From the IMG/VR virus record IMGVR_UViG_3300023184_000511, positions 1 through 24,096 of that record: DNA of 24,096 nt. One strand, written 5' to 3'. A program made the translations under genes and the position numbers. Below the pieces are notes generated by a model. The model was given only the letters and a program-made list of their open reading frames with translations. It searched no databases and was not told the DNA's origin. The stretch is from a virus. This document shows positions 1-18,066 of the stretch, piece by piece (position 1 is the first letter of the stretch; each line of letters begins with the position of its first letter).

Positions 1-3000
1 AATAACCGCACTAATTGGTTGTTGTATCAATGCCCCATTTGTTCCGGTAACACCTGTATATTCACCTGATGTTTGATATAAGGTGAACTTCTGATTATCA
101 ACTTGTCCCGGGCTAACCGGTAAGTTAATATTAATAGTCATGTCTCCGGTTGCGGTAGTTAAATCATATGTATCAACTTGACTGGTCATCATACCTGTAC
201 CATTAATAGTATCGGTAATACTGAGAGGTGCTAAGTTTATGCCAGTTGCAATTTGACATGCAGTTGATCCTACAAAAGAAGAAATATAATATGTAGTACC
301 GGCAACAATGTTGCTCCATGTAGTTGTACTAACCACGCCGCTGCCTTGTGATGCAGTACCAGTACCAGTGCCTGCGACTGTTGCTACAAAAACAGTACCC
401 ACTGAGTTAGAACTAGCACCGCACAATGTAAAGTTAGTTGATCCTACACTAACAATCGTGTACACTTCACCTACTACAAAACTGCCAGCAGTTACTAAAC
501 CGGTAGCTGCTGCTTGAAATCTAGTACCAGCAGTATTTGATAATGCACCTAATGCAGCAAAGTCAGTAGTACCCACGGTAACAATAGTATAATAATTACC
601 AACTATCAAATTACCAGGAGTAAACGTAAAGTTGTTGAATATAATAGGGTCGTTTAAACTTAGACCACTTATTACATCATCCAATGTAATAGTATCTGCT
701 GCTGAATTAGTTGATACCATTGTGTATATCGATGGCGTTGCGGATCTAGACATAGTGAATGTTTGTAAATCGCAAACAGTAGTTACATAGTAAATATCGT
801 TTGCAACAATACCACCAAATACTTCTGTCCCGCCGCTAGTAAAGAATAATGGTAGTCCTACGTAGAAACCAGTTGTCCCGCCTGTTCCTAATGTATTCAA
901 TGGTATTGTAAGTTTATTAGTTTCAGTTTGTGTAGCGGTTACACTAGTAATACCCGGATAAATTACAGTGATGATTGCAGTATCGGATACTGATCCAACA
1001 TAACATTCTAATCCTGCAATACTTATGATTTGAGTATTTAAATCTAACACAGGTGAGCCGGTACTTGATACACTAATTTGAAAATCAGTTTCATTAATAA
1101 TGGATGCAACATAATAAACTGTACCGGCTGTTATTCCACTAGAGCCAACTGCGCCTGTAAATTTTATAGGCATACCAATGTATAAACCAATAGTTGATCC
1201 AGATGCATTGGGAGTAATTGCTGTAAAGGTAATATCGGGGTTAGTTGATGAACTAGGAACTGTTTGCGAATAGCTAACCGTGTATCGACCAACTCCACCT
1301 AATGTTTCTCCTGTAGTTAGAGGAGTAATTTGATTAAGTATTGTTGTACCATATTGTATAGCTGCACCGGTTAACAAATCATTTGCTCTAATGCTGCCGC
1401 CTGTAACAGAATTCACAGTTAATGTTGTGCTAGAAATTCTACCCTGTGCAACATACGGACCGGATGGTAGCAAACGAACAAAATCAGTAGCATCAGTATA
1501 TGATACATTACGGATCAATGACAGATAATCCACTGTTCTTTCATTTCTGACATCAGATATTTCAAATGCAATTCCCTGTGCACCGGCCAATATTGATGTT
1601 ATCGGTGGTTGTGTGCTTTCTAATTGAATAGATGAACTTGCAACTGCTTTACTATTAGAATATTTTCCCGCATAATATGCACCGTAATATCTACCTGCTA
1701 CCCAATCAATAACCCTAGAATTATATGTATTTCTATCAAATCTTAAAGTTGTAATATTTTCTCTAACCGGACTCGCAGAAGTAAGTGTAAATGCTCTTGC
1801 TCCTAAATTCAATGAATTTTGTGAGCCAGAACCTTGATTATATATTTGTACTCTATTGTGATCATATACTGCATCGCCGTAACCAGTATACAATGCCACA
1901 ACTATTAGAGGAGAAGTTTCCAATACATTGACGTAGTACCATTGATTTGGTACGATGCCGCCAGGGGGGGTAGTATTTGTGTCTACCTTATATTGAATTA
2001 AATCACCGGTTGATAATGTTGGCGCATATAATCTAATTGTATTAGATTGAACACTAACGGCTGAACTATCAAACACCACGCTTAACGCAGAATCAATAAT
2101 AATTTCAGGCTCAGACAAATAGCCTTGACCAGGATTAATAACATCTATTCTTAAAACCGAATCTAATGACATTACTGCTTCCAACTGAGCAGGAACAATC
2201 GGTCCAATATATTGAATTATTGCAGTATTAGTTACGGTTTGCGATAAGTTAACTATATAAATGCCAGCATCAACTTGATCGATGATTTGAGTATTGTCTA
2301 ATATACCAGTACCGGTAATATAATTACCAACAACAATAGAGCCGGTAACCACACTGGTTATATATAAGGTAACATTATCAATTATACCAGTAAATTCAGC
2401 ACTTTTGGTTTTATTTGGATTAACATATGCTACAACTCTAGGAGGTTCAATATAGTTTTTACCAGAATTTAACAACACTACAGCCGGTAACTCAATTAAA
2501 ATTTGTTCTCCTGGAATATGATCAGTTATTGCGGTACCATTTACACCTCTTTGTAATCCACTAACAACATTTAATGCAGTATTAACATAAGAGTAATTTA
2601 TTTCTTCATACCCTGAACTGCTACCAATTTTAATTGTACCATTAACCGGGAATCCTGATGCATTATCAACTACAAATTCCTGAGTATTAGTCGTAATATA
2701 AGATGCCAGTATTGTAATTGGGTAATCAGATTGGCCAACCAAACTAAGTCCTTTATTGGCAAACCACTGAGTGTATTCTTGTGTTTGCCAAATTGGATCT
2801 GATGCAGCATACTCATAATACCCGTTAGGATCCTGATATACTAATTGGGGTGTTACGAATTGTTGTACATCCGTATTAAACTGTGCAGGCAAATCAAAGT
2901 CAGTAATATCACCTTCAAATAAATCACCTCCGGTATACTTAAACAAGAATTCTTTAATTACCACATGATATGGTTTGACTTCATTTAAATACCCAGCTAA

Positions 3001-6000
3001 GAATTCTTGATTGTCAGATTGATATACTTCAATTGGTTTTAATTCTCTAATAGTATGTGACACATCTATGAATGAAGTTTTATTTAACCACGGTAAGTAA
3101 TTTTCTGATTCGATAGTTTCACTTTGAATGTATTCAAACAATAATATCAAACTTTTATTTCTAAAAATTAACAATTCACCTTGAAATAGCTGTTCGTTTA
3201 GTGCTCTTAAGATCCAACGAGTTTCTTCGCTAGGAAAACTATCATACGGTGATGTGTCAAAGAAATTATCACCAAATCCTATTCTAGCAGCAGAATAATC
3301 CCATAAGTAAGTATTAAACTTAATAGTGCCATTTGATAATCCAATGCGTCTCCAAACACCAGTGGATTCGTATATGTAGGTTTCTGAATTACCGTTACCA
3401 TTCATAGCAACAGTTGCAATCGTGCCGGCGTCTACAGCCAACGTTGACAAATCAGCATATAGTGATACTTGCAATGATGATTTAGTACTATCACTATAGC
3501 CAGTAGCCCACCAATTGGCATATGACCAATAATTTGGGGTTGAGTATTGTTCACCTGTATTGAATATTAAAACTTTACAAGTTCCAGTTCCTGTACCCAC
3601 TACTGTAGCAACAAATGCTGTACCTACACTATTTGCCAATGAACCACATAATGTAAAATCTGTGGTGCCGACGGTATTAATAACATATTGCTTACCGACT
3701 ATTAAGCTAGTAGCAGATATGATTACTTCAGCATCTGTGTCAGGGTCAATAGCATAAATTCTAGGATTTTCTTGAAACAAATCAGAATAGCGTCCGGTTT
3801 CTGTAATAGGGAATTGAGCCAATACTTCATTTGCATAAGTTAAATAATTCTTTAATGCAGCAAAACGATTAACAAAGAAACTTTGTTTTGGTCTAGCAAG
3901 CACACCGTATTGAACTAATCTAGGCAAGAACGGATCAGGTACTACTTGCCCCGCAGTATCAACACCGCATATACTATCTAACATTCTGCTGTATAGGTTG
4001 AACGGATCACCCCCGTTAGCAAGTTGATAATTGCCATGCAATGTGGATTGTGTTCTATTAATAGATGAGGGTAATCCAGGCAAGAAATCATCTGCATAAT
4101 TGGCCCTGATCAATGAGTATTGACTGTGAGATACATCGTTATTAGTTCCTGACGCATACCCTATATGGAATACAGAATCTTGGGCGTTGATATAACTACC
4201 AGAATTATATATACCAAACACGTTTGGCAACAATGGTGCAAAATAACTTATTCCAGAATTTTGCGGATTTGCAATATATCTTTCTACAATACTATCAGAT
4301 AGAGTTTTACCTCTTTCTGTAAATATGATATTTGTATTTTGAACCCAATAGTAATACAACGGCACTAACGAACCAGTTGAATTTAGTACGTAATGAATTG
4401 CATATGAATTAACATCTTTGGGTCTACCCGGACCTTGATAATTGACAGGTAATACAGGACTTGAAACCCAACTGTATACAACTATGTTACTACCCGGGAA
4501 CAATGTTCCCCAATATCTAGAATTATATATCACATCATCTTGATGGTAGTTAACAAATTTCATGGCACTAGTATCAAGCCACAACATACCAAGATGTTCT
4601 GCACCCCAACTACGTTGAGATGCAACGGTGTTTACATTGTTGTAATAAGCCGGGTCAGAATTAGAAACAAAATCAATGTTTTCTCTTGCTGCACCTAATA
4701 TTTTACCCTGTAACGGATCAATATAATCTAAATTAATTAAAGTATTATTAGTTTGGGCACTAAAAATCTGAGAGTTGTTGATTTTGTTAATGTCAACAAT
4801 TTCACTAGAACTTCTAAATACTGACCAGTCTTTTTGACCAAGCACATTATTAAACGTCACAACTTGCCCGTCAACCGAGCCTGGCATAAAATTAGGTGTG
4901 CCTATAACTACATTGTAATTATTGAAATCTAGCGCAGTACCATATCTAGGCTGAGAGCCATATTCTTCATCAAGATTATTTACGTTTTGTGCAAACACAA
5001 ACTTACCTGGATTTAGTAAACTTTCATTATAGTTTGAAAGATAATCAAACATATAAACTGCACCTGCATTTGGCTTAGGATCAACCCATTGAGTTGTATT
5101 GTTATCAAATACAGTATCATTATCTAACTCATCATCACTAAAATCAAACGTAGTCGCTTCATACCTTGTGCCTGTAGGAGCACTAGCAATAAAAGAATCA
5201 AACTCATTGAACTTAACGGTATAACCAAACTGTGTTGGACCTGTTAAATGAGGGCAATGTATTAATTGTGTCTTAGTATAAACATTTATACCCAATTCTG
5301 CGTAAGTAGCAGCATCTAATACAGATAACATCAACTTTTGATTTGGAAGTGATAAGTCTGGATTTATAACGCTAATCGCTAATTTATCTAATTCCGGCCC
5401 TGTTACAGAAGCATTAATATTAATTAATCCAACACCGTTAATTGCATTTGCTGCTGTTGCTGCATCACCTACAGGTATATTAACTAAATATCCATTTAAT
5501 AAAATTAGTCTAGTGGAAGTAACATTGGTTTTCTCAGTACCAATTATTATACCGTACTTTCCACCACCGTTAGTAAATCTATGTATTGCACCTTCTTCAT
5601 TAAGTTTGTTTAATTGAAACGGAGCGCCAACAAGAATTTCACTAGCACTGGTAGTAATATCTACGCTATTACCAAATTGAACGCCAACTCTAGGAGTTTC
5701 TTCTGTAGTAAATGTTTGTGCTAATATGAAATTTTGACCACTTACATTTATAATATCACCCGCAGTTAGAGAACCAGTGAACACTAAAGTAGAATTAACT
5801 ACAGCATAATTGTTATCAGATACTAATGTTCCGTTTTGTGAAACATAGATTGGTGTGGTTTGTACATATGTAGGGACAGATATACTTGCAACAGGTGTTA
5901 TTGAAATTACTGATACAGATGTTCTTGTTGTTTTAATTTGAATTTTAGTTCCGGGCGTGTCAATTGCTGCTACATAGTATACTACGGTTGGTGACACCCC

Positions 6001-9000
6001 GGTGCCCGCTAAACCATTGCCAGTAAACATAATAGGATCATCGACGGTGATGCCAGCGATACTGTTAAGTTTAATATAATCACCCGATAATGTATCTGTT
6101 GCAGTAGTTGATGTTGTAGGTGGACTCCAGGCTAATTGTAATGCTGGAGGAACATTTGGTCTACTATTAGTTTGTATTAAAATATTCTGTTCAATACGGT
6201 TGAATGTATAGGTGTATCCCCAGTTTTCTAATCCATTTGCATTTTGATAAGGAGTTCCAACTACTAGTGTAGTACCTGCATAATCAGTAGAGATAGAATA
6301 ACCAAACTGATCACCTGAAACTAAGCCACTAGTTGTAACATATGTTGCATATTCATACAAATCAGTTAATTGTGATTTTCTATATGCATATACTCTATTA
6401 AGGTCTGTTGCAGAAATATAAAGCCATTGTTTGTCACCGGAAATTGTTACAGAACTGCCCCAATTGGTAGAACCGTCTTCCGCAGAAATTGTTTGCAATT
6501 CACTAAGAATATTAAGTTCTTTAGTTATAATTAAATCATATATATAAACTTTAGGAGATACGCTTGTAGGTTCTGCTGCTACAATAATATTATCTGAGTA
6601 TGTTATAGCCGAACCAAATGAACCACTTTCGGTAATTGTTTGAAGTAACTGATATGTTTTAGTCAATGCATCAAATGTATAGCGATATATCTTGCCTGCA
6701 TTTGCATCACCAATTAAATATCCTAAATTATCGGTGTAGGCTACTGCACTACCAAATGTCTCTGCGGTTAAGTCAGTAATTGAACTCTCATATTGATAAT
6801 TGATGCTCTTACGATAAACTGCCCATGCACCGTCATTATTAGTGTCTACCCAAACTTTATTCTTAATAAATTCGCTATCTAATAAAGGTAAATTATTAAT
6901 ATCAGAAGGTTGTGCCACTCTCTGAGATTGGAATAGCATTGCAATACCTTGACCTGTAATGTTTTTAACACTTGGTCCAAGTACTAAATTAATTATTATA
7001 TTAAATTGATCCACAACAAGTGCTGCAAGATAGTATCCATTTACTGCCGGATCAAAGTTAACAATTGCAAATGGTTGATATTGTGTTATATTATGCGGTG
7101 CGGCAAATGTGATAGTGACTGTGTTGTTCAAATTATTTTTTGCATTAATAACTCTACCCCCGGACACAGGGGTATATACTTGCCAAGATTGTAAATAATC
7201 TGCCAACCACATGTAATCACGTACATATAATCGATCAATGGGGACTACTAAACCATTTTGCCCTATTGCCAACGGCAATTGAGAATAATAATATGATGAC
7301 AACTTAACGTCATTGAAATTGACATACCCTGCATCAGGGTACAATAATGACGGTTCACCTGCGCTAATTGTAGGTAATATATTTACATTGTCAACTGGTC
7401 TTTCGTAGTTGAATAAACTATACAACGGTACTTCTTGTTGAACACCGTAAGTGTTGGTTAAACTGTCAGTAATTCCCACAATTGCAGGGTTACCGGTCAA
7501 ATAATTTTGATTTAGTTTAAATTCAATGAAGTTGTTATTAAGTACCCCGCCAAATTCACCTGACAAAATAGCCCAATTTTCATATACATCATAATCAATT
7601 CCACCCTGTGGTAGATTTGCACCTTTGAATGCATTGGTTGCGTTTCGTGTACCTTTGTTTTTAATTAAGTTTTTATAAACGTTAACTTGTGTAATATCTG
7701 TTAAATCTGCAATTGCTAGATAATCACGCGGACGATATCCAATTAAACTAAAACTTAATAAATCAGCATCTTGTTCAAGATTTGCTTCGTTTACATTATA
7801 ATACAATGTACTTTCATAGGCGCGTGTACTTGGATTAGGTAACAATCCTTTTTGTATTAAATCGTAGCTAGTTAATTTCCAATCTCGTTCATCAAATATT
7901 TCTTTTGCCTGAACAATTTTAATTGCTGTCCAATATTTGTTTTTATATTTGACAATTTGACCTGTGGTATATTTAATTTCTCTAGTCCATTCTTGGATAT
8001 TATCCTGATTTAGAATAAATCCACTAGTGGTCATTGTACCGTTCCATTCTGCTGTTTTAGAGCCGGTTAAATAAATTCTATTTTGTCTTAAGCCGGTAAC
8101 TAAATTATAAATGGTATCATTAAACAACGTGGTATTATCAAACACAACACCATGTTCCATATTACTAATATTAAATTGACCGTAACCAATACTATCACCT
8201 TGACTTAATGGTTTAGCATTAAATAGAGTTTCATCTCTAAACACATTTAAATCTTTGGCTTGTATAGGATATAAATTTTCATTTAATACAAAGTTAGTTT
8301 GGGCCAATGTTAATGGTTGAACAATATAACTATCTTTGTTAATTGTTAAACTATTTGCGCTAGGGTTTAAAGTTACAATACTACCATTTTCCCATCCAGT
8401 TTGTGCCCAATATAAAAATTCCGAAATCATTTGACTCCAGTTGATTTCTATACCATATTGCATATCATCAAATATCATTCCGGCTGCTCGTAAGTAAGCG
8501 CCATATCCAGCAACAAAATTTGCCACTTCTTGTGGTGTGCCAAATATAGTACCGTACGGTACTATATTGATTGGGGTATCATAGTTTCTACTAACTCTAA
8601 CTTTTAATTTTTCTACAGTTATTATATCAGTATTAACATTTGATTGAGGTGATAGTGACTTAAAATATGCATTGCTTTGTGAATTACCAAATACCGCATA
8701 ACCAGTCGCTACTTGTTGAACAATAATGCTTGAATAAACAATTTTATCAAACGGTTGATTATCGTATAACAATACCGCATAACTTTCATCTGGTATCAAC
8801 AATGATGCACTAGCACTATTAGGTGTTCCCTTTTCAACATAGAATTTTAATAAAGTTTTATCACTAAAACCAGCCAAACGATATATTAAACGAACATCTA
8901 AATTATTCAATAATGATTTTATATTAGCAGTAGCATCAACTCCAACTTGTTTTTCATAATCTACAATCCAATTAATATAACTTGTTTTGGGTATTCCGTT

Positions 9001-12000
9001 ACCATAAATTTCAACTTCATTAATTACTAAATGACTTCTATTGTTTACTAGATATTGATCAAATTCCGGGCTATACTTATAATTATCTACATCAACACCT
9101 AAATTAAAGAATCTAGCAGGGCGTGATAATGCCATTATACGCATTAAATCAAATGGCCATGAACTACTTCTACGATAGCTTAATTCTGTAGGAGAATCGT
9201 CTCCCACTACCCAATCAGCTTGCAATGTATTATTAGTATAATTGCCTACTATAGAAATAAAAGGTGATAGCAGATTGCCGGCACTATCAACCGGGATTAC
9301 ATTTAATAAACCATCACGGACAGCCTGTGGAATTACAAAAGGATTTCCATTATTCCAATCTATACCTTGGGCCAAATCGCCCCACAATACTAAGTTATCA
9401 CTTGTGTATGGCGCAGGGCCATATCGTGTTTGCCACCAAGTTGGCTGTATTTTATATCCAAGCATTTCCCAAGGTGTACTATCGGGGGTAGTTGTATCAT
9501 AAAAATATTGATATACGCCTCTCCAATATCCCTGTTCAATTGGTTCACCGTTTATTCTATTTGCACTACTATTATAATTATAAGTGAATTCGTTATTTTT
9601 ATTAAAATATTGATGTTTATATTCTACACGATTTTGCCCTACCCAATTTAAAAATGCGGGGCTATACATATCCATATATTCATCATATGAATAGGGGCTG
9701 GTTCTAAAGAAACCGGGTACAATTTCATATTCTTGAATTGGTATAACATTACTTAATTTTAAATTGTTATAAACACGAGTTTCATATTCAAGCAATGCTT
9801 GATCTCTAAAATCAACTAATACCCCAATTGTTGGATCATAATCGCCATACAATTTATTATACGAACCGTCATGACCAAGAATAAAATAGGTTGGTTCTGA
9901 ATAATGATTATCTACAATAACTTCAGGTATAAATGCTGGATATAATCCTAATTTTGTAGGGGTATTAGGAGCATAGCTGCCGTATGTTTGATTGTATTCT
10001 TTGATAGTAATTTGATCACCGGGTGCTAAATCTGTAGTAATGGTCAATGAAGGTGCATCTGTGCTTACTATATAATCTTGTCCTTTTATTAATTGAGTGA
10101 CGGATTGAACACCGTCTGTTGTTCTATCAAGATAAACTAATACACCGTAGTAATTTGCAGTGGTAAAGTCATATATTCTAGTTAAAGGATAGATACTTAC
10201 ATCTAAACTGTTTGCAAATGAATATGTATTTTGAACATACGCGGCTTTGCCGGGTAGCATATCACTCCAAAAGAACGGCTGACTATTAGATTTGTTTGCA
10301 GCAATTTGCACTAATGCATTGTCTAGTATATATGAAGGATCAAATCTTTGGTTATATGCGGTTTTGTTAACGGTATCAACTAACAAAGTTTTAAATTTAA
10401 TATATTCTTTATTATTATATGCCAATGAGTTGAATAGATTATGATTTTGTTTTCTTAAGAAAGTGCCGGGCAATACTAAGGATGCACTATTCTGAATAAT
10501 ACGATTTCCCCATGGAACAACGTTGCCTAAATCACGAAAATTATTTGATCCAAATACTTCTCCTATTACATTTGGATTATTATAAAATATACTTTGATAT
10601 TGTCCGCGAATCTCACCAACATTAACTGTAGTTAACTCTGCATTTAATGGATTATTATTAAGATTAATTGGTATTGTATAGTATGCCTTAGGGCTAACTT
10701 GATCACTTAATAATAATATCTGTACGACGGTATCTGTAGTGGGATCAGTATTTAAATATACTAATGTATTTGTTGCTCCAACAGTAACAAGATACATATC
10801 AGATGTTTGAAGCACATTATTTACAAAAACTTGAATAGTAGGCCATTCAGTAACTAAGTTTGCAGCAATGTCACATAAAAATGACGGAGGGGTACCTAGT
10901 ACATAATCAAAAGAAAATAATTGATACTGTACGCTTGGTGCTACCGCAGTTTGCCAACCCAATTGTCTTTTAAAAGCATCTCTAGAGAAATAGTTATAAA
11001 CATAGCCAGTATTAACTTTTTGAGTTATTGGATTTTGTCCCTGAACATAAGTAAATGTATTGGAATTCAACGATACATCAAAACTAATATCACCTACATT
11101 ATTAACAGAACTGTATCTTATTGGGAACCCTAAAACAATATCATTAATTCCCGAACCAACTCCATACGCAAATAGTTTGTTGCCTGCAAAAGAACTTCCT
11201 ACGTAGACAGCCTTATCACCAAAACTTATATTGTTTTCATCAAATACATCAAACAACGGTGGTTGATTGACTGTTATTTTTTGTTGACCTTGTGTCCATA
11301 TATCTCCGTCAAAGTAAAAATCAAAACCCGCATGTTCATAACCTCTATAAACTGCCAATTGGTCGTTTACTAAAATAGCGCCATCATTTGCTTCGGCTAA
11401 TGTTATAATAGGTGTGGCGCTTCCAGTAACTGTTGAGAACCGTGACACATAAATTTTATTTCTAACTTCTAAATTAGTATCTGCTGCAAAAACTACTCTT
11501 GACCCTTCAAATAATGCGTAATTATCTACGGTAGTAGCAGTTGCAACTAATGATGCACCAGTCGCACCGGGGATTATTCCATAAGTACCTTGGCCCCATG
11601 ATACTACTATAGTTAGTGTAGTTGTACCAGTTACTGATTCAATTATTGAATTGGTAGGTAATACATTTGTAGAATCAGTAATATACAAACCAATATCAAA
11701 TGTACCAGTTACGTCTGCTGCTGCTATAGTAACAGTTGTACTTAATGGTTCCCAAGTTGTACTTATACTTCCACTTGCAGTTGTTAATTCTAATGTTTCC
11801 CCGCCGGCAGTTAAAGATAATTTAATATGAGTGCTATCAACAACTTCAGAAATGTAATAAGTGGTGATCTCATCTACATTACCCAAAACACCCAAAGTAG
11901 ATGCTGCCGGTATTACAATAATATCATTTACACGAAAACCTGTAGTGCTATTAACTGTTACCAAATTAGTAGTTAATGCAGTTTCAGTTATTGTTCTACT

Positions 12001-14163
12001 TATACTGTAATCTGTAGTAGCAATTGTTCCGGTATATTCAGTATATACTTGTACATCGGGATAGTAATTTTGTTGTCCGGCTACAATAGAGAATGCATCA
12101 GGTGTTCTTGTATCAATAAAATCAATTGGTGCTTTACCATATGTACCAGAATTAAAAAGTTTTAAGTTAGGATAAAATTCTATGATCGGGCGCTTTGCTT
12201 TGTTATCAGCAGTTGCATATATTGAAACTAAATCTGGATTATTGTTATACGTAGCTGTTGCATTGATAACATCAATATGAAACCAACGATTGCTTCTAGA
12301 CCATGCGTTCATATTAATTGCATTTCTAGCAATTGTTATATAATCTTGCATTACCGGAATTGAACTGCTAGCTTCCCAACTACCAACATCATATGCTAAC
12401 GAATCCCAAGGAATATATACACTTTCAGTAAATCCTTCAGGTACAACTAAATCGCTAACTGGTATTAATTCTATAGCAGTGCCTACGCCCTCAACGTAAT
12501 ATTGACCCGTTTTATATTTTGGCGGATATATATCGCCTTGCAATGTAATTTTTAATCCATTGGTAAATACTACACCTGAAAGTGATGTGTAATTTGGTCT
12601 ACCTAAAATATCAACATCAACATTAATTGTATTAGTAATATTACTTTCAATAATTTTAATTAAACCAACTTTGTTTGCATTGTTTCCATCTTGATAATAT
12701 AATGTATCTAACGTAGAACTTATATATGGTATTAATTGTATTTCACCGGCCTCATTTTGAAAGAAACTTTTATTTGCATATTGTGTTCCAAAATTTGGAA
12801 TAATTTTTTGTCCGGATGGAATAGCACTTGCGGGAACTAGGTTAATAACATAGCTGCCCGGAGTTCCTACATATTTTATTGTATATAAATTTTGATTTAC
12901 ATACGTGTAATAACCCTCTTCTAACAAACCTTGATTTGTATATGCGGTCATTGTTCCAGTAGCAGTTGTAAGTGCCTCTTGTGATCCATTTGGACTTAAT
13001 GATATAGTAAAATGAGTTGAATCCGTAATAGATTGTACGTAGTAAAGCGTGTTATCTGCTGTGGTTGAATATTGTTTTATTCCACCAAACGGGGTTGTTC
13101 CGGTAAAAGTAATACTTCCACCAACTATTAAGTTTGCAGTAGAACTACAAGTAATTAAATTACCAATACTATTAGTTGCTGTAATAGAAATAGATTGAGT
13201 TGCAACTAATTCATTATTAGTATCATACTCAGTATAATCATAGAAATTTTGAACAAATCCTATTTCGTTTGTTTCGCCAGTATCATAAAATAAGACAGTA
13301 AGACCGTTCAATGATGTTACCCCGTCAATTCCTGCAAAGCCGGTGACTGGTTGACCATTTAATGAACTAAATGGAATCGTAGATACTACACCTACAGGGT
13401 TATTACCGGGTAAGTTAAATTCATTTTGAGCATCTTTAAATGGCACCGAAAATGTTACAACACCCTGATTAACGCCATTGTTTTGTACTCCAAATACATC
13501 ACGAGTATACAAATTAGGTTGAGTTGGGCTATATCCTGTAACTCCGGGAGCACCTTGTATCCAAAAGCCACTTGCTTGATTTACGTTAAAAGTATATGTG
13601 CCGCCCCTAAGAAGCGTTAGTGTAGGATTTGTTGTTGATCCAGATGAGCCGACTACACCAATATTATAACCGTTACCAACATCGGTAACTACATAATCAT
13701 TATTAGTGAATACAGTTTGTGCTGAGACAACTACTGATTCAGGACCTTCTGGTATCCAATAGTATTGGTTAAAATTAATTAATTTATCTAAGTTAGTAAA
13801 ACTATCCCAAGAATAGAATTCACCTTCAAATAACCTATTATTATTATTAGTTTGACCACCTTCTAATTTTATACCATCGACAATACCCGGATAACTAATA
13901 AAATCTTGTGCAGTATTTGTGTTAGTTTTAGTAAAGACAACACCCGGATCTAATTGGTAATCTATTCTAGTTTTTGTAGGTTCGGTAACGTAATAGTTAT
14001 TTGCATTAACCCCATAACCAAATTTGCTACCCACATAACCTTGTATTTTTTTAGTGTTAGGTTGATCTACTAATACATCCAACGTTGCCCCTAAGAATTG
14101 AGCATTGGTTGGTGTTTTAAATATCTCAGGTAAAAAATTAAGTGTTCTTATTCTTGTTGCCAT
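1..14163 (-). CDS. Giant modular tail/baseplate protein, at least 4,721 aa, C-terminus outside the window
   Basis: The frame opens with ATG at 14163, 10 bases after the gp6-like stop, and no TAA, TAG or TGA occurs in frame down to position 1. Protein numbering below starts from this ATG. Residues 1-145 form a block likely to dock on the baseplate. Then follow a cupredoxin-like insert (about 180-243), long Tyr/Asn/Asp-rich beta-type sequence, an aromatic block (about 1545-1601), a CBM5/12-like module (2057-2101), an FG-GAP-like propeller (about 2458-2659), a VKPYH block (about 3721-3743), and three families of short degenerate repeats, densest after residue 3480. No signal peptide, obvious membrane segment or recognisable enzyme motif was seen. 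No good Shine-Dalgarno sits at the usual distance: the nearest GGA is 13 bases from the ATG. The position directly after gp6 matches gp7 of T4 or gpI of P2, both far shorter. Inference: a baseplate-anchored giant fibre or scaffold. The reading frame is certain; the function is not. Confidence 0.9.
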   Translation of the reverse strand, partial: MATRIRTLNFLPEIFKTPTNAQFLGATLDVLVDQPNTKKIQGYVGSKFGYGVNANNYYVTEPTKTRIDYQLDPGVVFTKTNTNTAQDFISYPGIVDGIKLEGGQTNNNNRLFEGEFYSWDSFTNLDKLINFNQYYWIPEGPESVVVSAQTVFTNNDYVVTDVGNGYNIGVVGSSGSTTNPTLTLLRGGTYTFNVNQASGFWIQGAPGVTGYSPTQPNLYTRDVFGVQNNGVNQGVVTFSVPFKDAQNEFNLPGNNPVGVVSTIPFSSLNGQPVTGFAGIDGVTSLNGLTVLFYDTGETNEIGFVQNFYDYTEYDTNNELVATQSISITATNSIGNLITCSSTANLIVGGSITFTGTTPFGGIKQYSTTADNTLYYVQSITDSTHFTISLSPNGSQEALTTATGTMTAYTNQGLLEEGYYTYVNQNLYTIKYVGTPGSYVINLVPASAIPSGQKIIPNFGTQYANKSFFQNEAGEIQLIPYISSTLDTLYYQDGNNANKVGLIKIIESNITNTINVDVDILGRPNYTSLSGVVFTNGLKITLQGDIYPPKYKTGQYYVEGVGTAIELIPVSDLVVPEGFTESVYIPWDSLAYDVGSWEASSSIPVMQDYITIARNAINMNAWSRSNRWFHIDVINATATYNNNPDLVSIYATADNKAKRPIIEFYPNLKLFNSGTYGKAPIDFIDTRTPDAFSIVAGQQNYYPDVQVYTEYTGTIATTDYSISRTITETALTTNLVTVNSTTGFRVNDIIVIPAASTLGVLGNVDEITTYYISEVVDSTHIKLSLTAGGETLELTTASGSISTTWEPLSTTVTIAAADVTGTFDIGLYITDSTNVLPTNSIIESVTGTTTLTIVVSWGQGTYGIIPGATGASLVATATTVDNYALFEGSRVVFAADTNLEVRNKIYVSRFSTVTGSATPIITLAEANDGAILVNDQLAVYRGYEHAGFDFYFDGDIWTQGQQKITVNQPPLFDVFDENNISFGDKAVYVGSSFAGNKLFAYGVGSGINDIVLGFPIRYSSVNNVGDISFDVSLNSNTFTYVQGQNPITQKVNTGYVYNYFSRDAFKRQLGWQTAVAPSVQYQLFSFDYVLGTPPSFLCDIAANLVTEWPTIQVFVNNVLQTSDMYLVTVGATNTLVYLNTDPTTDTVVQILLLSDQVSPKAYYTIPINLNNNPLNAELTTVNVGEIRGQYQSIFYNNPNVIGEVFGSNNFRDLGNVVPWGNRIIQNSASLVLPGTFLRKQNHNLFNSLAYNNKEYIKFKTLLVDTVNKTAYNQRFDPSYILDNALVQIAANKSNSQPFFWSDMLPGKAAYVQNTYSFANSLDVSIYPLTRIYDFTTANYYGVLVYLDRTTDGVQSVTQLIKGQDYIVSTDAPSLTITTDLAPGDQITIKEYNQTYGSYAPNTPTKLGLYPAFIPEVIVDNHYSEPTYFILGHDGSYNKLYGDYDPTIGVLVDFRDQALLEYETRVYNNLKLSNVIPIQEYEIVPGFFRTSPYSYDEYMDMYSPAFLNWVGQNRVEYKHQYFNKNNEFTYNYNSSANRINGEPIEQGYWRGVYQYFYDTTTPDSTPWEMLGYKIQPTWWQTRYGPAPYTSDNLVLWGDLAQGIDWNNGNPFVIPQAVRDGLLNVIPVDSAGNLLSPFISIVGNYTNNTLQADWVVGDDSPTELSYRRSSSWPFDLMRIMALSRPARFFNLGVDVDNYKYSPEFDQYLVNNRSHLVINEVEIYGNGIPKTSYINWIVDYEKQVGVDATANIKSLLNNLDVRLIYRLAGFSDKTLLKFYVEKGTPNSASASLLIPDESYAVLLYDNQPFDKIVYSSIIVQQVATGYAVFGNSQSNAYFKSLSPQSNVNTDIITVEKLKVRVSRNYDTPINIVPYGTIFGTPQEVANFVAGYGAYLRAAGMIFDDMQYGIEINWSQMISEFLYWAQTGWENGSIVTLNPSANSLTINKDSYIVQPLTLAQTNFVLNENLYPIQAKDLNVFRDETLFNAKPLSQGDSIGYGQFNISNMEHGVVFDNTTLFNDTIYNLVTGLRQNRIYLTGSKTAEWNGTMTTSGFILNQDNIQEWTREIKYTTGQIVKYKNKYWTAIKIVQAKEIFDERDWKLTSYDLIQKGLLPNPSTRAYESTLYYNVNEANLEQDADLLSFSLIGYRPRDYLAIADLTDITQVNVYKNLIKNKGTRNATNAFKGANLPQGGIDYDVYENWAILSGEFGGVLNNNFIEFKLNQNYLTGNPAIVGITDSLTNTYGVQQEVPLYSLFNYERPVDNVNILPTISAGEPSLLYPDAGYVNFNDVKLSSYYYSQLPLAIGQNGLVVPIDRLYVRDYMWLADYLQSWQVYTPVSGGRVINAKNNLNNTVTITFAAPHNITQYQPFAIVNFDPAVNGYYLAALVVDQFNIIINLVLGPSVKNITGQGIAMLFQSQRVAQPSDINNLPLLDSEFIKNKVWVDTNNDGAWAVYRKSINYQYESSITDLTAETFGSAVAYTDNLGYLIGDANAGKIYRYTFDALTKTYQLLQTITESGSFGSAITYSDNIIVAAEPTSVSPKVYIYDLIITKELNILSELQTISAEDGSTNWGSSVTISGDKQWLYISATDLNRVYAYRKSQLTDLYEYATYVTTSGLVSGDQFGYSISTDYAGTTLVVGTPYQNANGLENWGYTYTFNRIEQNILIQTNSRPNVPPALQLAWSPPTTSTTATDTLSGDYIKLNSIAGITVDDPIMFTGNGLAGTGVSPTVVYYVAAIDTPGTKIQIKTTRTSVSVISITPVASISVPTYVQTTPIYVSQNGTLVSDNNYAVVNSTLVFTGSLTAGDIINVSGQNFILAQTFTTEETPRVGVQFGNSVDITTSASEILVGAPFQLNKLNEEGAIHRFTNGGGKYGIIIGTEKTNVTSTRLILLNGYLVNIPVGDAATAANAINGVGLININASVTGPELDKLAISVINPDLSLPNQKLMLSVLDAATYAELGINVYTKTQLIHCPHLTGPTQFGYTVKFNEFDSFIASAPTGTRYEATTFDFSDDELDNDTVFDNNTTQWVDPKPNAGAVYMFDYLSNYNESLLNPGKFVFAQNVNNLDEEYGSQPRYGTALDFNNYNVVIGTPNFMPGSVDGQVVTFNNVLGQKDWSVFRSSSEIVDINKINNSQIFSAQTNNTLINLDYIDPLQGKILGAARENIDFVSNSDPAYYNNVNTVASQRSWGAEHLGMLWLDTSAMKFVNYHQDDVIYNSRYWGTLFPGSNIVVYSWVSSPVLPVNYQGPGRPKDVNSYAIHYVLNSTGSLVPLYYYWVQNTNIIFTERGKTLSDSIVERYIANPQNSGISYFAPLLPNVFGIYNSGSYINAQDSVFHIGYASGTNNDVSHSQYSLIRANYADDFLPGLPSSINRTQSTLHGNYQLANGGDPFNLYSRMLDSICGVDTAGQVVPDPFLPRLVQYGVLARPKQSFFVNRFAALKNYLTYANEVLAQFPITETGRYSDLFQENPRIYAIDPDTDAEVIISATSLIVGKQYVINTVGTTDFTLCGSLANSVGTAFVATVVGTGTGTCKVLIFNTGEQYSTPNYWSYANWWATGYSDSTKSSLQVSLYADLSTLAVDAGTIATVAMNGNGNSETYIYESTGVWRRIGLSNGTIKFNTYLWDYSAARIGFGDNFFDTSPYDSFPSEETRWILRALNEQLFQGELLIFRNKSLILLFEYIQSETIESENYLPWLNKTSFIDVSHTIRELKPIEVYQSDNQEFLAGYLNEVKPYHVVIKEFLFKYTGGDLFEGDITDFDLPAQFNTDVQQFVTPQLVYQDPNGYYEYAASDPIWQTQEYTQWFANKGLSLVGQSDYPITILASYITTNTQEFVVDNASGFPVNGTIKIGSSSGYEEINYSYVNTALNVVSGLQRGVNGTAITDHIPGEQILIELPAVVLLNSGKNYIEPPRVVAYVNPNKTKSAEFTGIIDNVTLYITSVVTGSIVVGNYITGTGILDNTQIIDQVDAGIYIVNLSQTVTNTAIIQYIGPIVPAQLEAVMSLDSVLRIDVINPGQGYLSEPEIIIDSALSVVFDSSAVSVQSNTIRLYAPTLSTGDLIQYKVDTNTTPPGGIVPNQWYYVNVLETSPLIVVALYTGYGDAVYDHNRVQIYNQGSGSQNSLNLGARAFTLTSASPVRENITTLRFDRNTYNSRVIDWVAGRYYGAYYAGKYSNSKAVASSSIQLESTQPPITSILAGAQGIAFEISDVRNERTVDYLSLIRNVSYTDATDFVRLLPSGPYVAQGRISSTTLTVNSVTGGSIRANDLLTGAAIQYGTTILNQITPLTTGETLGGVGRYTVSYSQTVPSSSTNPDITFTAITPNASGSTIGLYIGMPIKFTGAVGSSGITAGTVYYVASIINETDFQISVSSTGSPVLDLNTQIISIAGLECYVGSVSDTAIITVIYPGITSVTATQTETNKLTIPLNTLGTGGTTGFYVGLPLFFTSGGTEVFGGIVANDIYYVTTVCDLQTFTMSRSATPSIYTMVSTNSAADTITLDDVISGLSLNDPIIFNNFTFTPGNLIVGNYYTIVTVGTTDFAALGALSNTAGTRFQAAATGLVTAGSFVVGEVYTIVSVGSTNFTLCGASSNSVGTVFVATVAGTGTGTASQGSGVVSTTTWSNIVAGTTYYISSFVGSTACQIATGINLAPLSITDTINGTGMMTSQVDTYDLTTATGDMTININLPVSPGQVDNQKFTLYQTSGEYTGVTGTNGALIQQPISAVI
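355..480 (-). repeat. VGTTDFT repeat, copy B (tandem with copy C)
   Basis: Residues 4562-4603: FVVGEVYTIVSVGSTNFTLC, GASSNSVGTVFVAT, GTGTGTA. It is close to copy A in protein sequence, and the underlying DNA is also recognisably similar (shared runs around the CGGxAxNSVGT codons). It therefore probably arose by duplication rather than convergence. Confidence 0.65.
508..609 (-). repeat. VGTTDFT repeat, copy C (tandem with copy B)
   Basis: Residues 4519-4552: LIVGNYYTIVTVGTTDFAAL, GALSNTAGTRFQAA. It is followed after a few residues by copy B, giving a true tandem pair. It is more diverged at its end, lacking the GTGTGT tail. Confidence 0.6.
712..927 (-). repeat. YYV-type degenerate module, copy 5
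   Basis: Residues about 4413-4484: TNKLTIPLNTLG, GFYVGLPLFFTSGG, NDIYYVTTVCDLQTFTMS. It follows copy 4 closely, giving a near-tandem pair. Weaker relatives (WYYVNVLETSPLIVVALY near 1900-1970 and TTYYISSFVGSTACQIATG near 230-310) fit the core only partly and are not listed separately. Confidence 0.55.
1030..1236 (-). repeat. YYV-type degenerate module, copy 4
   Basis: Residues about 4310-4378: DITFTAI, GLYIGMPIKFTG, GTVYYVASIINETDFQISVS. This is a clear match to the core of copy 1 (IGMPIKFTG / YYVASI...FQIS). It is separated from copy 5 by only about 35 residues. Confidence 0.55.
1258..1431 (-). repeat. ITGTGI...YxVSxSQTV module, copy 2
   Basis: Residues about 4245-4302: STTLTVNSVTGGSIRANDLL, TGAAIQYGTTILNQI, GRYTVSYSQTV. 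It has the same order of elements as copy 1 and runs directly into YYV-module copy 4, so modules of different families are concatenated. A weaker relative lies around 11640-11760 (FDIGLYITDSTNVLPTNS). Confidence 0.55.
2221..2373 (-). repeat. ITGTGI...YxVNxSQTV module, copy 1
   Basis: Residues about 3931-3981: VTLYITSVVTGSIVVGNYIT, then GTGILDNTQI and YIVNLSQTVTNTAI. The pattern LxVTxVxxGxIxVGxxIxGTGI...T.I......G.Y.V..SQTV is one I recall as frequent in phage tail proteins. Confidence 0.55.
2500..2685 (-). other. EEINYSYV...GLQRGVNGT block of the giant protein
   Basis: Residues about 3827-3888 read FVVDNASGFPVNGTIKIG, YEEINYSYV, GLQRGVNGTA, GEQI. The order G.I.IG.E.I.Y...........G..RGVNGT.....G..I is a short beta-element I recall from many phage tail and fibre proteins. 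The function is unknown. Confidence 0.4.
2935..3003 (-). other. VKPYH block of the giant protein
   Basis: Residues about 3721-3743 read FLAGYLNEVKPYHVVIKEFL. It is preceded by a helical, Leu/Ile/Glu-rich stretch (WILRALNEQLFQGELLIF near 3160-3220). I remember the EVKPYH.KI.EF motif in large structural proteins of marine myoviruses, but this was not checked. It may mark the end of an ancestral core before the repeat-rich C-terminal part. Confidence 0.35.
3577..3705 (-). repeat. VGTTDFT repeat, copy A
   Basis: Residues 3487-3529: LIVGKQYVINTVGTTDFTLC, GSLANSVGTAFVAT, ending GTGTGTC. The pattern (V)VGxxYxIxTVGTTDFTxxGaxxNSvGTxFxATxxGTGTGT is shared with copies B and C. Confidence 0.65.
5905..6090 (-). 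repeat. YYV-type degenerate module, copy 3
   Basis: Residues about 2692-2753: LSGDYIKLNSIAGITVDDPI, MFTGNGL, VVYYVAAIDTPGTKIQI. It keeps the (V)xDPIxF...YYVxxI core but lacks the LTTATG end. It lies just downstream in the protein of the FG-GAP-like segment. Confidence 0.45.
6187..6792 (-). other. FG-GAP-like beta-propeller segment of the giant protein
   Basis: Residues about 2458-2659 hold four spaced FG-GAP-type blades: TFGSAVAYTD, SFGSAITYSD, NWGSSVTISGD and DQFGYSISTDYAGTTLVVGTP. Between them are YRYTFDALTKTYQLLQTI, VYIYDL and VYAYRK strands, the usual alternation in integrin-alpha-type propellers. The segment is preceded by VWVDTNNDGAWAVYRK. Such propellers usually mediate protein or glycan binding. 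Four clear blades are fewer than the six or seven of a closed propeller; others may be too degraded to see. Confidence 0.55.
7861..7995 (-). other. CBM5/12-like (chitin-binding type 3) module in the giant protein
   Basis: Residues 2057-2101 read QEWTREIKYTTGQIVKYKNK, then YWTAIKIV and DERDWKLTSYD. The arrangement W....Y..G..V.Y....Y.A.........W matches the short aromatic signature of family 5/12 carbohydrate-binding modules, which are common in phage tail proteins. The aromatic residues at the expected spacing are the evidence. A role in binding host glycans is an inference from the family. Confidence 0.5.
9361..9530 (-). other. Aromatic-rich conserved block of the giant protein
   Basis: Residues about 1545-1601 contain GYWRGVYQYFYDT, PWEMLGYKIQPTWW, RYGPAPYTSDNLVLW and GDLAQG. 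The density of Trp, Tyr and Pro is far above the rest of the protein. I recall near-identical motif strings (PWEMLGF..KP.WW, YG.APYT) in very large structural proteins of marine myoviruses, but cannot confirm this here. About 50 residues further on is another striking stretch, SYRRSSSWPFDLMRIMALS. No enzymatic motif is recognised. Confidence 0.4.
11761..11964 (-). repeat. YYV-type degenerate module, copy 2
   Basis: Residues about 734-801: LVTVNSTTGFRVNDIIVI, then TTYYISEVVDSTHIKLSL and LELTTASGSIS. It aligns by eye with copy 1 over its full length (YYV..I.DST.F.IS versus YYISEVVDSTHIKLS; LTTATG versus LTTASG). Confidence 0.6.
12943..13167 (-). repeat. YYV-type degenerate module, copy 1
   Basis: Residues about 333-407 of the giant protein: NLITCSSTANLIVGGSITF, then LYYVQSITDSTHFTIS, ending LTTATGTMTA. 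The core pattern is (V/I)GxxIxF...YYVxxIxDSTxFxIS...LTTATG. It recurs at least four more times in this protein (see the other copies). The fold is unknown to me; the pattern suggests a small beta-domain. Confidence 0.6.
13435..13626 (-). other. Cupredoxin-like insert in the giant protein
   Basis: Residues about 180-243 read LTLLRGGTYTFNV, then GFWIQ, GVQNNGVNQG and VVTFSVP. This order (L.RG.TY.F.V, FWI, GV.NNG...G..TF.VP) is the pattern I associate with small cupredoxin-like beta-sandwich domains in marine phage and bacterial proteins. The usual C-terminal Cys/His/Met ligand segment after the TF.VP strand is not visible; the sequence continues FKDAQNEFNLPG instead. The insert is therefore probably structural or carbohydrate-binding rather than a copper site. 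Confidence 0.45.
13729..14163 (-). other. N-terminal conserved block of the giant protein (possible baseplate docking domain)
   Basis: Residues 1-145 include the stretch LNFLPEIFKTPTNAQFLGAT, then VGSKFGYGV, an EPTKTRIDYQLDPGVVF run, FYSWDSF, and INFNQYYWIPEGP. From memory this pattern begins very large structural proteins in aquatic T4-like phages. The LPEIF...FL start also loosely resembles the LPxIY...FL opening of gpI-type tail proteins. That resemblance, and the position after gp6, are the only grounds for proposing a wedge-docking role. Confidence 0.5.
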
Positions 14164-14170
14164 AATCTAT

Positions 14171-14178
14171 TATTTATC
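14171..14178 (-). promoter_or_regulatory. GATAAATA, candidate late-promoter element before the giant gene
   Basis: On the coding strand the octamer GATAAATA ends 7 bases before the ATG at 14163 and contains the gp6-like stop codon TAA (14176-14174). T4 late promoters use TATAAATA. The same octamer precedes gp25 and gp6 here. An alternative is that the GGAT part is a weak, distant ribosome-binding site with an A/T spacer. Confidence 0.45.
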
Positions 14179-17100
14179 CGATTTGTAATTGTGCTGGTGT
14201 AAGTGCTGCTATAACTAATACATCATTTGCTGTCGCCCCATTAACAAAGATTTCATATGGCGCTGATTTAATTTCATATAAATCACCAAATGACATCAGT
14301 GGATTGTTGGGCACTAATACAGCAGAACTGATTAAACTTCCACATTCGTTATGCAAATATGCACTTAATTCGGAAAAGTAAAACGTATCTCCAAAATTCC
14401 AATTGTTGATATCAAAATAATTATTCATGGCAGTTAAGACCGCACTACGAATTTCACTATTACTAGCACTGGTTCTACTATCTCTAATAACTTTAATAGT
14501 TGCACGTAATGCAGGTAATGCCTTAGGACCAAATAATGGTTGAAATGCCACACTATTTAAAATTACACTATCAGTAAGCATTTTGAAATCATTCACTTGA
14601 CCATATGATTGTGTTAATTCATTTATAGTTGGTTTTTCTGGTTCAGGTACTGTATTTGTAGTATCTTGTATATAATTAGTATAGGCAGTATAATAAGCCT
14701 GTGTTACCACATATAAATCAATAATGTTTGTTGTAGCAGGATCGATACGTGTCGTATTGTTACTATTATGACGATATTGAAATTGTAATCCTTGACGACC
14801 AGGTCTAGTAATATATTGACCAGTCGGTTCTTGTTCTAATACATAGAACGGAGTTGTAACTGCACTATCTTGTACGGTTGTATAAAAAATATTATCGGCA
14901 TATGCATAAAATAATTGTCCTAAAGGGTAATCATATTTTGCATTTTCAATTTGTGTTGAAGTTGGATATGAGTAAACAACATCAGTAGATGGTATAATTT
15001 GATATCTAGATAAATTAATAGCATCCTGAACTAAACTAAAAAATACATATATACCAATATTGGCATTATTAGGAACATATCCTGTTACTGCATTAAAGAA
15101 ATCTGGATTAGATATAATAGTTTGATTATTGATATCAGTAGTTGAAATTTCAACTTCAAAATCATCTATATATCCGTCAGAAAAAACTGTTTGTCCTACT
15201 ATATTAGTTTGTATATTATTTGTTAAAGGGTAATTGGAATTATATTGTGTATTAGTTGCCAGGACAGTTACACTATCTTGTAATATTTTTCCAGAAAAAG
15301 GATCGTAAACTAGCTTGTCTCTTTCGAATGCAAATCTAGTATCAGCTACACTTCCAAATAGATATTCTAATGATTTATACGTTATAGTATATCTGTTGTT
15401 TCCTAAACTATTAAAGTTTACGAACCAACCAGTAGTATTATAATTTTCAATAGACCATCTATCTTGGTTAATACTCAATGAATTATTGAATAACAAAGAA
15501 AAACTTTGTTGCAGTTGCATCTTAAGAATACATTCTTGTATAATAGTAGCTGACAATGAATTATCAAACGAAGGGATAATTGTTGTTAGTATAGCGCCAG
15601 TTGGTATATATCCATTAAATGATATTGGGCCTGCTCCATTAGTAAATGCACCTCTACCATTATTATATCCATCACCAATTACATATAATGCTGTAGTCCA
15701 GAAATAAGTAGCGTCGGATGGGCTCGGTATACCCGAAACTAATCTATTGTTACTATCAAAATAATAACCAGATGGTGCTACAAATTTACATAATGCACCC
15801 TTACTGATATATTTTACGTTATGAGTAGAGTAAGTACCAACCGAGATAGGGGTATTTTGATTATGTTCTATATCATAAAAATAACCAGTTAATGAGTTTG
15901 CAGCAACACTACTTGTTTGCCAATATACTGTTCCGTCACCTGACGCAGAATTAACATTATATCTAGGATAATATTGATTATAATACTGCATAGAACGATT
16001 TGCTGCTAGGGCAGCAGACAATGAATCTGATAAGAAAGTAATGATATCACCGGTGGTATTAATATTAAGAGTTAATACTCCATTACTATCATCAAAATAC
16101 ATAGCGCCGTCATTGGCAAAACTATTTAAACTACTGTATTTGCCAGTTGGATCAAGTAAATCTAAATTCTTACTTACACCAACGCTACTTCTGTTAACTG
16201 CTTTTGATTTAATAATAGAACTGTATAATGTATACGGGAAGTTATTATAATCTTCACCGTTAACCATGCGGTTCTGTGTGTAATATCTTGTTGGGGCACG
16301 TTGTTTGATTTGTGCTAATGGTTCACGAACTTGTGCATTTGATACTGGGGTTGATAATTGTAATCCTAATGTCAATGTTTCAGCACGACCGTAACGGTTT
16401 AAATAGGTAAACGATACGCTGATCCCTTGCATTTCTGACGGGTCAATTGTATAAGTTAATGCATTCCCTGCACGTACATATGCTCTATAATTACCTACAG
16501 GGATTTCGCTAAAAACACCATCTCCAAATACGTAACTTACTTGGTCATTAAAACGAGAGGTGACACTAAAAATTTGGCGTCTGCTTGATTCGGTTTGTAG
16601 ATACGCATCAGCATAGATGTTGTCCACTTGTTTCCATAATAATGGCGTATTGTTATTAGTACTAACTTGATATAGCCAAGTATCAGTATTATTGATACCT
16701 TCAATATCAATATCTACTACTTGATTAGAAATTTGTTGCTGTAAATTAAAATCATAATTTTGCAATGTGCCTTGTTTAAAGTAGAAGAAATAACCTGTAT
16801 TTGGACTACCATAACCTAAACCGTCGTTACGATATAACATATTAAAGCGACCAGTCGGTGCTGGAGGAATTTCATAAACATAATCTTCATTTAAACTAGT
16901 TACACTTACTAATTCAAATGGCATTGTCATCCCGTCAACTGATGAGGTGAAGGGCACGATTGGTAAACTATTAGTTGGTATAGCCAATGTATATTCACTT
17001 GTTTTAACACCTAACAAATCTGATGTATTACCTGGATTTCCAATTCGTTGAGAATTAATTAATGCACTATTGATAATAGTATTATACTGTTCCAACCAAT

Positions 17101-17551
17101 ATGGATTTGCAGGGTCATTCCATAATATAGGAATATTACCTAAATTAATTCCGTTTAAATCTGTTATATTTTCACTAGTTCTAATGCTAGTTATTTTAAT
17201 AAAGCCTTGGCCGGCTAAATTTCTTTTAGGGGTATAGCTTACTAAATTAGCTAGTTTTACAACGCTATCTCTACGTTCCGCAGTATCAATGAAGTTTTCA
17301 CGGGTGTTCAGGTCATCACGGAAAGCAAGACCTTGACCCATAAAGGCCATAACATCCATTAACGCAATAAATTCTGAACTTTCAATGAAGTCGTTGAAAG
17401 TTTCAGGGTAATATACACGCAAATAATCTATGAAACTTTTGCGTAGGGTCTCATAATCATAACTCCTGAAGTCTGCTTCACGGAAAGTTTGATATATGGT
17501 TTTCCAATCGTTTACCCCGAATAATGATGATTGTCTTGAACTTGTAGCCAT
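14174..17551 (-). CDS. gp6: Baseplate wedge protein, gp6/gpJ-like (1,125 aa)
   Basis: This is a structural protein of the baseplate wedge. In T4, gp6 dimers hold the inner ring together and bind gp25 and gp7. The N-terminus is characteristic: DYETLRKSFIDYLRVYYPE, NDFIESSEFIALMDVMAFMG, LNTRENFIDTAERRDSVVKL, LANLVSYTPKR (residues about 38-110). Around residue 428 is RMVNGEDYNNFPYTLY, also typical. The last 200 residues follow the gpJ-type C-terminus: IDLYVVTQAYY, PTINELTQSYG, FGPKALPALRATIKV, SEIRSAVLTAMNNYFDIN, NWNFGDTFYFSELSAYLH. It is clearly longer than T4 gp6 (about 660 aa); the extra sequence lies mainly between about residues 450 and 900 and is Asn/Tyr/Ser-rich. The start at 17551 sits just downstream of a weak AGAG (17559-17562) and a GATAAATA element. 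The gene lies between gp25 and the giant gene, as expected. Confidence 0.9.
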   Translation of the reverse strand: MATSSRQSSLFGVNDWKTIYQTFREADFRSYDYETLRKSFIDYLRVYYPETFNDFIESSEFIALMDVMAFMGQGLAFRDDLNTRENFIDTAERRDSVVKLANLVSYTPKRNLAGQGFIKITSIRTSENITDLNGINLGNIPILWNDPANPYWLEQYNTIINSALINSQRIGNPGNTSDLLGVKTSEYTLAIPTNSLPIVPFTSSVDGMTMPFELVSVTSLNEDYVYEIPPAPTGRFNMLYRNDGLGYGSPNTGYFFYFKQGTLQNYDFNLQQQISNQVVDIDIEGINNTDTWLYQVSTNNNTPLLWKQVDNIYADAYLQTESSRRQIFSVTSRFNDQVSYVFGDGVFSEIPVGNYRAYVRAGNALTYTIDPSEMQGISVSFTYLNRYGRAETLTLGLQLSTPVSNAQVREPLAQIKQRAPTRYYTQNRMVNGEDYNNFPYTLYSSIIKSKAVNRSSVGVSKNLDLLDPTGKYSSLNSFANDGAMYFDDSNGVLTLNINTTGDIITFLSDSLSAALAANRSMQYYNQYYPRYNVNSASGDGTVYWQTSSVAANSLTGYFYDIEHNQNTPISVGTYSTHNVKYISKGALCKFVAPSGYYFDSNNRLVSGIPSPSDATYFWTTALYVIGDGYNNGRGAFTNGAGPISFNGYIPTGAILTTIIPSFDNSLSATIIQECILKMQLQQSFSLLFNNSLSINQDRWSIENYNTTGWFVNFNSLGNNRYTITYKSLEYLFGSVADTRFAFERDKLVYDPFSGKILQDSVTVLATNTQYNSNYPLTNNIQTNIVGQTVFSDGYIDDFEVEISTTDINNQTIISNPDFFNAVTGYVPNNANIGIYVFFSLVQDAINLSRYQIIPSTDVVYSYPTSTQIENAKYDYPLGQLFYAYADNIFYTTVQDSAVTTPFYVLEQEPTGQYITRPGRQGLQFQYRHNSNNTTRIDPATTNIIDLYVVTQAYYTAYTNYIQDTTNTVPEPEKPTINELTQSYGQVNDFKMLTDSVILNSVAFQPLFGPKALPALRATIKVIRDSRTSASNSEIRSAVLTAMNNYFDINNWNFGDTFYFSELSAYLHNECGSLISSAVLVPNNPLMSFGDLYEIKSAPYEIFVNGATANDVLVIAALTPAQLQIG

Positions 17552-18054: not shown

Positions 18055-18058
18055 GATG

Positions 18059-18066
18059 TATTTATC
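18059..18066 (-). promoter_or_regulatory. GATAAATA, candidate late-promoter element before gp25
   Basis: On the coding strand the sequence is AGGATAAATACATC followed by ATG. The octamer contains the spike-gene stop TAA (18064-18062) and ends 4 bases before the start codon. AGGA overlaps its left edge and could serve as ribosome-binding site, so the two functions cannot be separated by eye. Confidence 0.4.

Follow-up and report, generated by a model that had tools for sequence, protein, structure and literature searches.

A stop-free frame of 4,721 codons directly after gp6 encodes a much enlarged, modular variant of a poorly studied virion protein family of jumbo phages

The window analyzed here, a viral metagenomic fragment of 24,096 bases, carries a cluster of baseplate genes on its minus strand in the order gp5-gp25-gp6-giant (Table 1). 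The frame of the giant gene runs from an ATG at 14163 to position 1 through 4,721 sense codons with zero stops and is still open at the window edge; the stop of the gene lies beyond position 1 and the C-terminus of its product outside the window. This confirms an earlier note, which had described an open frame of more than 4,700 codons directly after gp6, as the gp6 ORF ends at 14174, ten bases ahead of the ATG of the giant. Over 1-14163, each of the other five frames contains 268-605 stops, and the chance of 4,721 stop-free codons at this base composition (34.6% GC, stop probability of 0.075 per codon) is ~10^-160. Upstream, an OB domain was found in the 1,147-aa gp5-like hub protein, and no lysozyme Pfam domain was detected in it; hub-lysozymes are annotated in T4, CBB, and RaK2. 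Within the hub gene, the part for the C-terminal half (18001-20000) has a GC content of 46-49%, versus ~34% in the giant gene, and contains an opposite-strand ORF of 273 aa at 18375-19196 (+); this segment may have been acquired separately or be of unusual composition.

Table 1. Genes of the window and features of the giant protein, in order along the minus strand.
Feature	Residues	Position	Strand	Remarks
Virion structural protein		21518..24094	-	phrog_11190; 5' end outside window
gp5-like baseplate hub with OB domain		18062..21505	-	PHROG and Pfam profile matches
gp25-like baseplate wedge protein		17605..18054	-	PHROG match; PF04965 just under cut-off
gp6-like baseplate wedge subunit		14174..17551	-	phrog_10646, E 1.7e-252
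Giant baseplate-associated virion protein		1..14163	-	PHROG_10938 family; profile E 4.6e-256
Conserved N-terminal domain	1-150	13714..14163	-	Common to RaK2, CBB, Atu_ph07, and PA5oct-like phages
YYV beta-module	326-406	12946..13188	-	Variable insertion site, occupied in some relatives
YYV beta-module	723-800	11764..11997	-	Second variable site
Most widely conserved scaffold	1143-2054	8002..10737	-	49 invariant columns in 24 sequences including RaK2, CBB, and 121Q
Adaptor-like domain	1304-1393	9985..10254	-	AF2 model mb4a9e6d3cf37; modest scores
CBM5/12 (chitin-binding type) fold	2054-2101	7861..8004	-	Modeled; Foldseek and VIA
FG-GAP_2 repeat	2613-2654	6202..6327	-	Over Pfam cut-off
YYV beta-module	2687-2756	5896..6105	-	Module profile
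GTTDF module	3487-3526	3586..3705	-	Variable site
Second highly conserved scaffold block	3551-3800	2764..3513	-	Beta domain and helices
RG module	3811-3887	2503..2733	-	Beta-barrel; second copy at C-terminal tip of complete relatives
YYV and GTTDF array	4320-4675	139..1206	-	Start of variable extension

Because the window is a single metagenomic fragment that does not cover the end of the gene, the frame might have arisen from separate genes joined in error or from a chimeric contig. An IMG/VR scan with residues 1143-2054 of the window protein as the query yielded 230 candidate relatives, and the best 80 of these, which share ~64-72% identity, were fetched. In all 80, which come from many different metagenomes, the giant ORF runs on without a stop as far as the flanking sequence was fetched. 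In 19 relatives whose continuation was also fetched, an intact stop was reached after 5,702-7,756 aa, in one uninterrupted ORF each and with conserved neighbors (two of the 19, L018 and L021, have equal length and look near-identical). The C-terminus is conserved in these complete relatives, and genes of ~206, 400, and 317 aa follow in nearly all of those with enough sequence. Furthermore, in codon-aligned comparisons with four relatives, differences were most frequent at the third codon position, less so at the first, and least so at the second in each 400-codon slice, indicating that the giant ORF is translated and under coding selection over its whole length. An assembly artefact is thus vanishingly improbable; the same ORF in independent assemblies refutes it in practice.

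Alignment of the last 120 residues of the window protein with the complete relatives predicts a total length of 6,231-6,926 aa by 17 relatives and of 7,755 aa by the longest one. If the relatives are a guide, the full window protein is predicted to comprise about 6,200-7,000 aa. The longest complete relative (L081) reaches 7,756 aa and a calculated mass of 838 kDa; it carries 16 GTTDF modules, mostly in its C-terminal part (aa 4280-7422 of the L081 protein, tail in L102), which suggests module amplification. The record of another relative, L070, contains a separate frame of 822 codons (G009:C1:212292-213557) that is similar to the variable modules on the C-terminal side of the window protein, and modules may thus be shared between virion genes. 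Our literature searches returned no account of phage proteins this long, the nearest one stated to be giant being the 5,002-aa tape-measure protein of P23-45 (PMC10770324), which the complete relatives exceed. The giant is likely to be among the longest phage or virion proteins. No relative of it was found in GTDB bacterial genomes, which hence gave no clue to the host, and none was found in IMG/VR with a PA5oct-type query. A search of seven relatives for psbA/Photo_RC was likewise negative.

Comparison with cultured phages placed the giant in a known family. The best stretch of its match to the PHROG_10938 profile is the most widely conserved scaffold, and homologues are present in RaK2-like phages and XacN1 (121Q, 3,323 aa; RaK2, 3,326 aa; CBB, 3,340 aa; XacN1, 3,313 aa), in Vibrio phage 2.275.O (3,771 aa), SCTP-2 (3,807 aa), and the PA5oct-like phage Deifobo (3,857 aa), and in Agrobacterium phage Atu_ph07 (4,449 aa) and Sinorhizobium phage Phosso (4,555 aa). 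The gp25-gp6-giant order is common to RaK2, CBB, 121Q, XacN1, Atu_ph07, and Phosso, and a gp6-type gene precedes the giant in Deifobo and the Vibrio phage. The exception is Salicola phage SCTP-2, in which the gp6 homologue, identified by a tblastn match, lies ~90 kb from the giant, so that the slot differs; the gene ahead of the giant there (L104 482-9772) has itself ~3,100 codons, a different wedge arrangement. RaK2 ORF070, CBB_236, and 121Q gp582 share with the window protein the slot after gp25 and gp6, the N-terminus, and the scaffold at ~aa 1394-2051, but they are only 3,323-3,340 aa long, and YYV and GTTDF were not found in them by module profiles. The giants of Atu_ph07, Phosso, and PA5oct-like Pseudomonas phages share the slot, the N-terminus, and the scaffold, and also have an RG module near their C-terminus, but they are ~1,150-3,900 residues shorter than the complete environmental relatives and lack the module-rich extension. 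That the giant is a virion protein, as the earlier note had supposed, is supported through its homologue CBB_236, for which mass spectrometry of virions gave 21 unique peptides that cover 7.7% of the protein (PMC5259590). phAPEC6 gp245 (381.9 kDa, 17 peptides), which adjoins the wedge protein gp244 (PMC7247149), is probably another family member, judging from its position and size. PHROGs files PHROG_10938 under "head and packaging"; this class is contradicted by gene position, as members lie mostly in the wedge cluster directly after gp6.

These comparisons also change how the locus should be viewed. The picture of one giant gene that fills the gp7 slot without interruption, built as a mosaic of small modules, was borne out. 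The view that such a gene is exceptional for a myovirus was not supported, since all related jumbo phages examined encode a homologous protein of 3.3-4.6 thousand residues, in most cases at the same position. The statement that this is normally the place of gp7/gpI is likewise true of T4 but not of the relatives, whose homologous protein there never has fewer than 3,300 aa; the comparison with T4 gp7 overstated the rarity of a giant protein after gp6. The window ORF is a much enlarged variant of a known, poorly studied virion protein family. What is new is its size and its build, namely a scaffold with module gain and loss at discrete sites and a C-terminal extension.

T4 gp7 (1,032 aa) resembles the giant in its position after gp6 and in its presumed wedge role, but it is several times smaller, and sequence homology between the two is not detectable. 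The giant could nevertheless be an expanded gp7 homologue whose core fold lies concealed in the conserved scaffold. Its place directly after gp6 agrees with this, as does the finding that a profile of 16 T4-like gp7 sequences had no match in 11 related genomes, including Atu_ph07, Deifobo, CBB, and RaK2 (four of the 11 are isolate genomes deposited as complete, and a T4 positive control found its own gp7). However, hhalign detected nothing between a single T4 gp7 sequence and the giant and gave probabilities of 0.5% or less for 500-residue slices of the giant against a 22-sequence gp7 profile. T4 gp7 was also absent among the fold matches listed for the AF2 models of the giant, which are weak and so exclude nothing. 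Tail_P2_I (PF09684) had no match either, but it is uninformative, as it has none in T4. We consider a grown gp7 unlikely, yet worth keeping in mind. By these sequence comparisons, gp7 is absent or unrecognizable in the related genomes and the giant sits in its place, and a functional replacement of gp7 by the giant is a reasonable inference.

Having placed the protein in its family, we analyzed its architecture by aligning it with the complete relatives and by building modules from iterated HMMs. Occupancy is full along the scaffold, which comprises some 3,800 aa and extends to ~aa 3,900, and is broken at discrete variable sites (aa 301-400, 701-800, 3451-3550, 3900-4000, and 4200-4350) with a mean occupancy of 27-66% and complete flanks. 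Several of these sites are accounted for by two modules whose occupancy differs between relatives: YYV (~76 aa, 257 copies in total), with seven copies in the window protein and 11-18 in relatives, and GTTDF (~40 aa, 44 copies in total), with three and 0-16 copies, respectively. The site near aa 730 holds YYV in some relatives and GTTDF in others. The module profiles returned just one YYV copy from the distant isolates, that of the Vibrio phage. A third module, RG, occurs at two places in the environmental giants, at ~aa 3,500-3,850 and ~50-60 residues from the C-terminus; both copies are present in Phosso, and only the C-terminal one was found in Atu_ph07 and Deifobo. This distribution would be explained most simply if, in the environmental lineage, ~2,000 residues or more were added in front of the conserved tip.

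Fold and profile searches assigned parts of the protein to recognizable domains. Residues 2054-2101 are modeled as a CBM5/12-like fold of the chitin-binding type, matching Streptomyces chitinase C (2d49) with a Foldseek probability of 1.00, a TMt of 0.66, and an rmsd of 2.1, at an E value of only 0.08. They also match the baseplate receptor-binding complex of Agrobacterium phage Milano (8fqc; Foldseek probability 1.00, and for 8fqc_Q1 a VIA Z of 6.7 and an rmsd of 1.8 over 45 residues), the tail fiber of phage 7-7-1 by fold, and chitin-oligosaccharide deacetylases (VIA Z ~6). The corresponding Pfam family, PF02839, was not found in the window protein and is sub-threshold in relatives (12.7-14.7 bits versus a cut-off of 26.2). 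Milano (8fqc) and 7-7-1 (9rkv) likewise have a small chitin-binding-type domain in a tail or baseplate protein, but in far smaller proteins (PDB chains of 173 and 570 residues), whereas the window protein combines it with many other modules in one chain. Residues 1304-1393 resemble the P1 baseplate (9vzk; VIA Z 7.5, rmsd 2.6 over 75 residues), CBA120 TSP4 (Z 7.2), and the T7 gp17 N-terminus (Z 4.8). Since the tool itself warns that a Z below 8 may reflect a mere common arrangement, this likeness to phage tail-adaptor or tail-fiber-adaptor modules is suggestive. The RG module at aa 3811-3887 gave a Z of 10.0 to 9in6_M and of 9.8 to 8jov_1, the FG-GAP_2 repeat is likely part of a beta-propeller, and one relative, L004, has BNR/YCF48-like blades that are sub-threshold in Pfam. 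By contrast, alignment-based sequence searches of both conserved scaffold blocks against the PDB returned chance matches only, a sequence search found no PDB relative of the YYV module, and NCBIfam had no match on the window protein. Pfam gave weak hints for YYV, to an endosialidase beta-barrel (E 0.008, two members) and to E1_FCCH, which we did not use as evidence. The two AF2 models have mean pLDDT values of 56 and 61 and pTM values of 0.36 and 0.38, and being so weak they leave most of the scaffold without an assigned fold.

What might such a protein do at the baseplate? We favor, with some reservation, an enlarged baseplate protein of the RaK2/PA5oct/Atu_ph07 type that is anchored at the wedge and whose outward modules contact the host, dock fibers, or both. 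Several copies per virion would be anchored to the gp6/gp25 wedge via N-terminal and scaffold parts, where the giant would perform what gp7 performs in T4. The outward part, consisting of glycan-binding-type and adaptor-type modules, would extend from the baseplate and be the first to touch the cell envelope and/or dock the tail fibers. The wedge would pass on the signal of receptor contact, so that the sheath contracts. By swapping modules, the phage could adjust what it touches while the wedge stays intact. The proposal is supported by the PHROG_10938 match, the gp25-gp6-giant order, the CBB_236 and phAPEC6 gp245 peptides, coding selection over the full length, the conserved C-terminus and downstream genes of the complete relatives, the discrete insertion sites and their modules of differing occupancy, the CBM5/12-like fold, the FG-GAP repeat, the L004 blades, the adaptor-like domain, the terminal RG module shared with Atu_ph07, Phosso, and Deifobo, and the negative gp7 profile search of the 11 related genomes. 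It is weakened by the lack of detectable gp7 homology and of PDB relatives of the conserved blocks, and by the weak AF2 models. Although carbohydrate-binding-type modules are present, conservation is highest in scaffold of unassigned fold; host binding or recognition by the giant is plausible.

The main rival is a purely structural scaffold of the wedge or its periphery, or a docking frame, with receptor binding left to separate tail fibers and the modules serving as spacers or docking sites. RaK2 indeed has separate branched, spike-studded fibers (PMC3622015, PMC9700779), the scaffold rather than the modules forms the most conserved blocks, the adaptor-like domain fits fiber docking equally well, and small beta-modules can also be spacers. 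However, CBM5/12 and FG-GAP are carbohydrate- or ligand-binding types, and rapid module turnover would be expected of a part that touches the host more than of a fixed scaffold; we regard the structural frame as possible but the less probable reading. A tape-measure protein, which can also be giant, as in P23-45, is highly improbable, given the location in the wedge cluster after gp6, with the family beside gp6, the threonine-rich composition, and the mixed alpha/beta structure, with much beta, of the modeled parts.

The family is common, with 230 candidate relatives in IMG/VR that are mostly annotated merely as "virion structural" or "hypothetical". More tentatively than wedge-anchored host contact itself, the environmental giants may represent a widespread jumbo-phage lineage in which gp7 has been replaced by a single modular protein of 5.7-7.8 thousand residues, at once wedge scaffold and multivalent glycan adhesin, that evolves by gain and loss of beta-cassettes. 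Our findings thus raise the questions of how a wedge without detectable gp7 assembles and whether a baseplate component can itself act as an evolvable receptor-binding surface.
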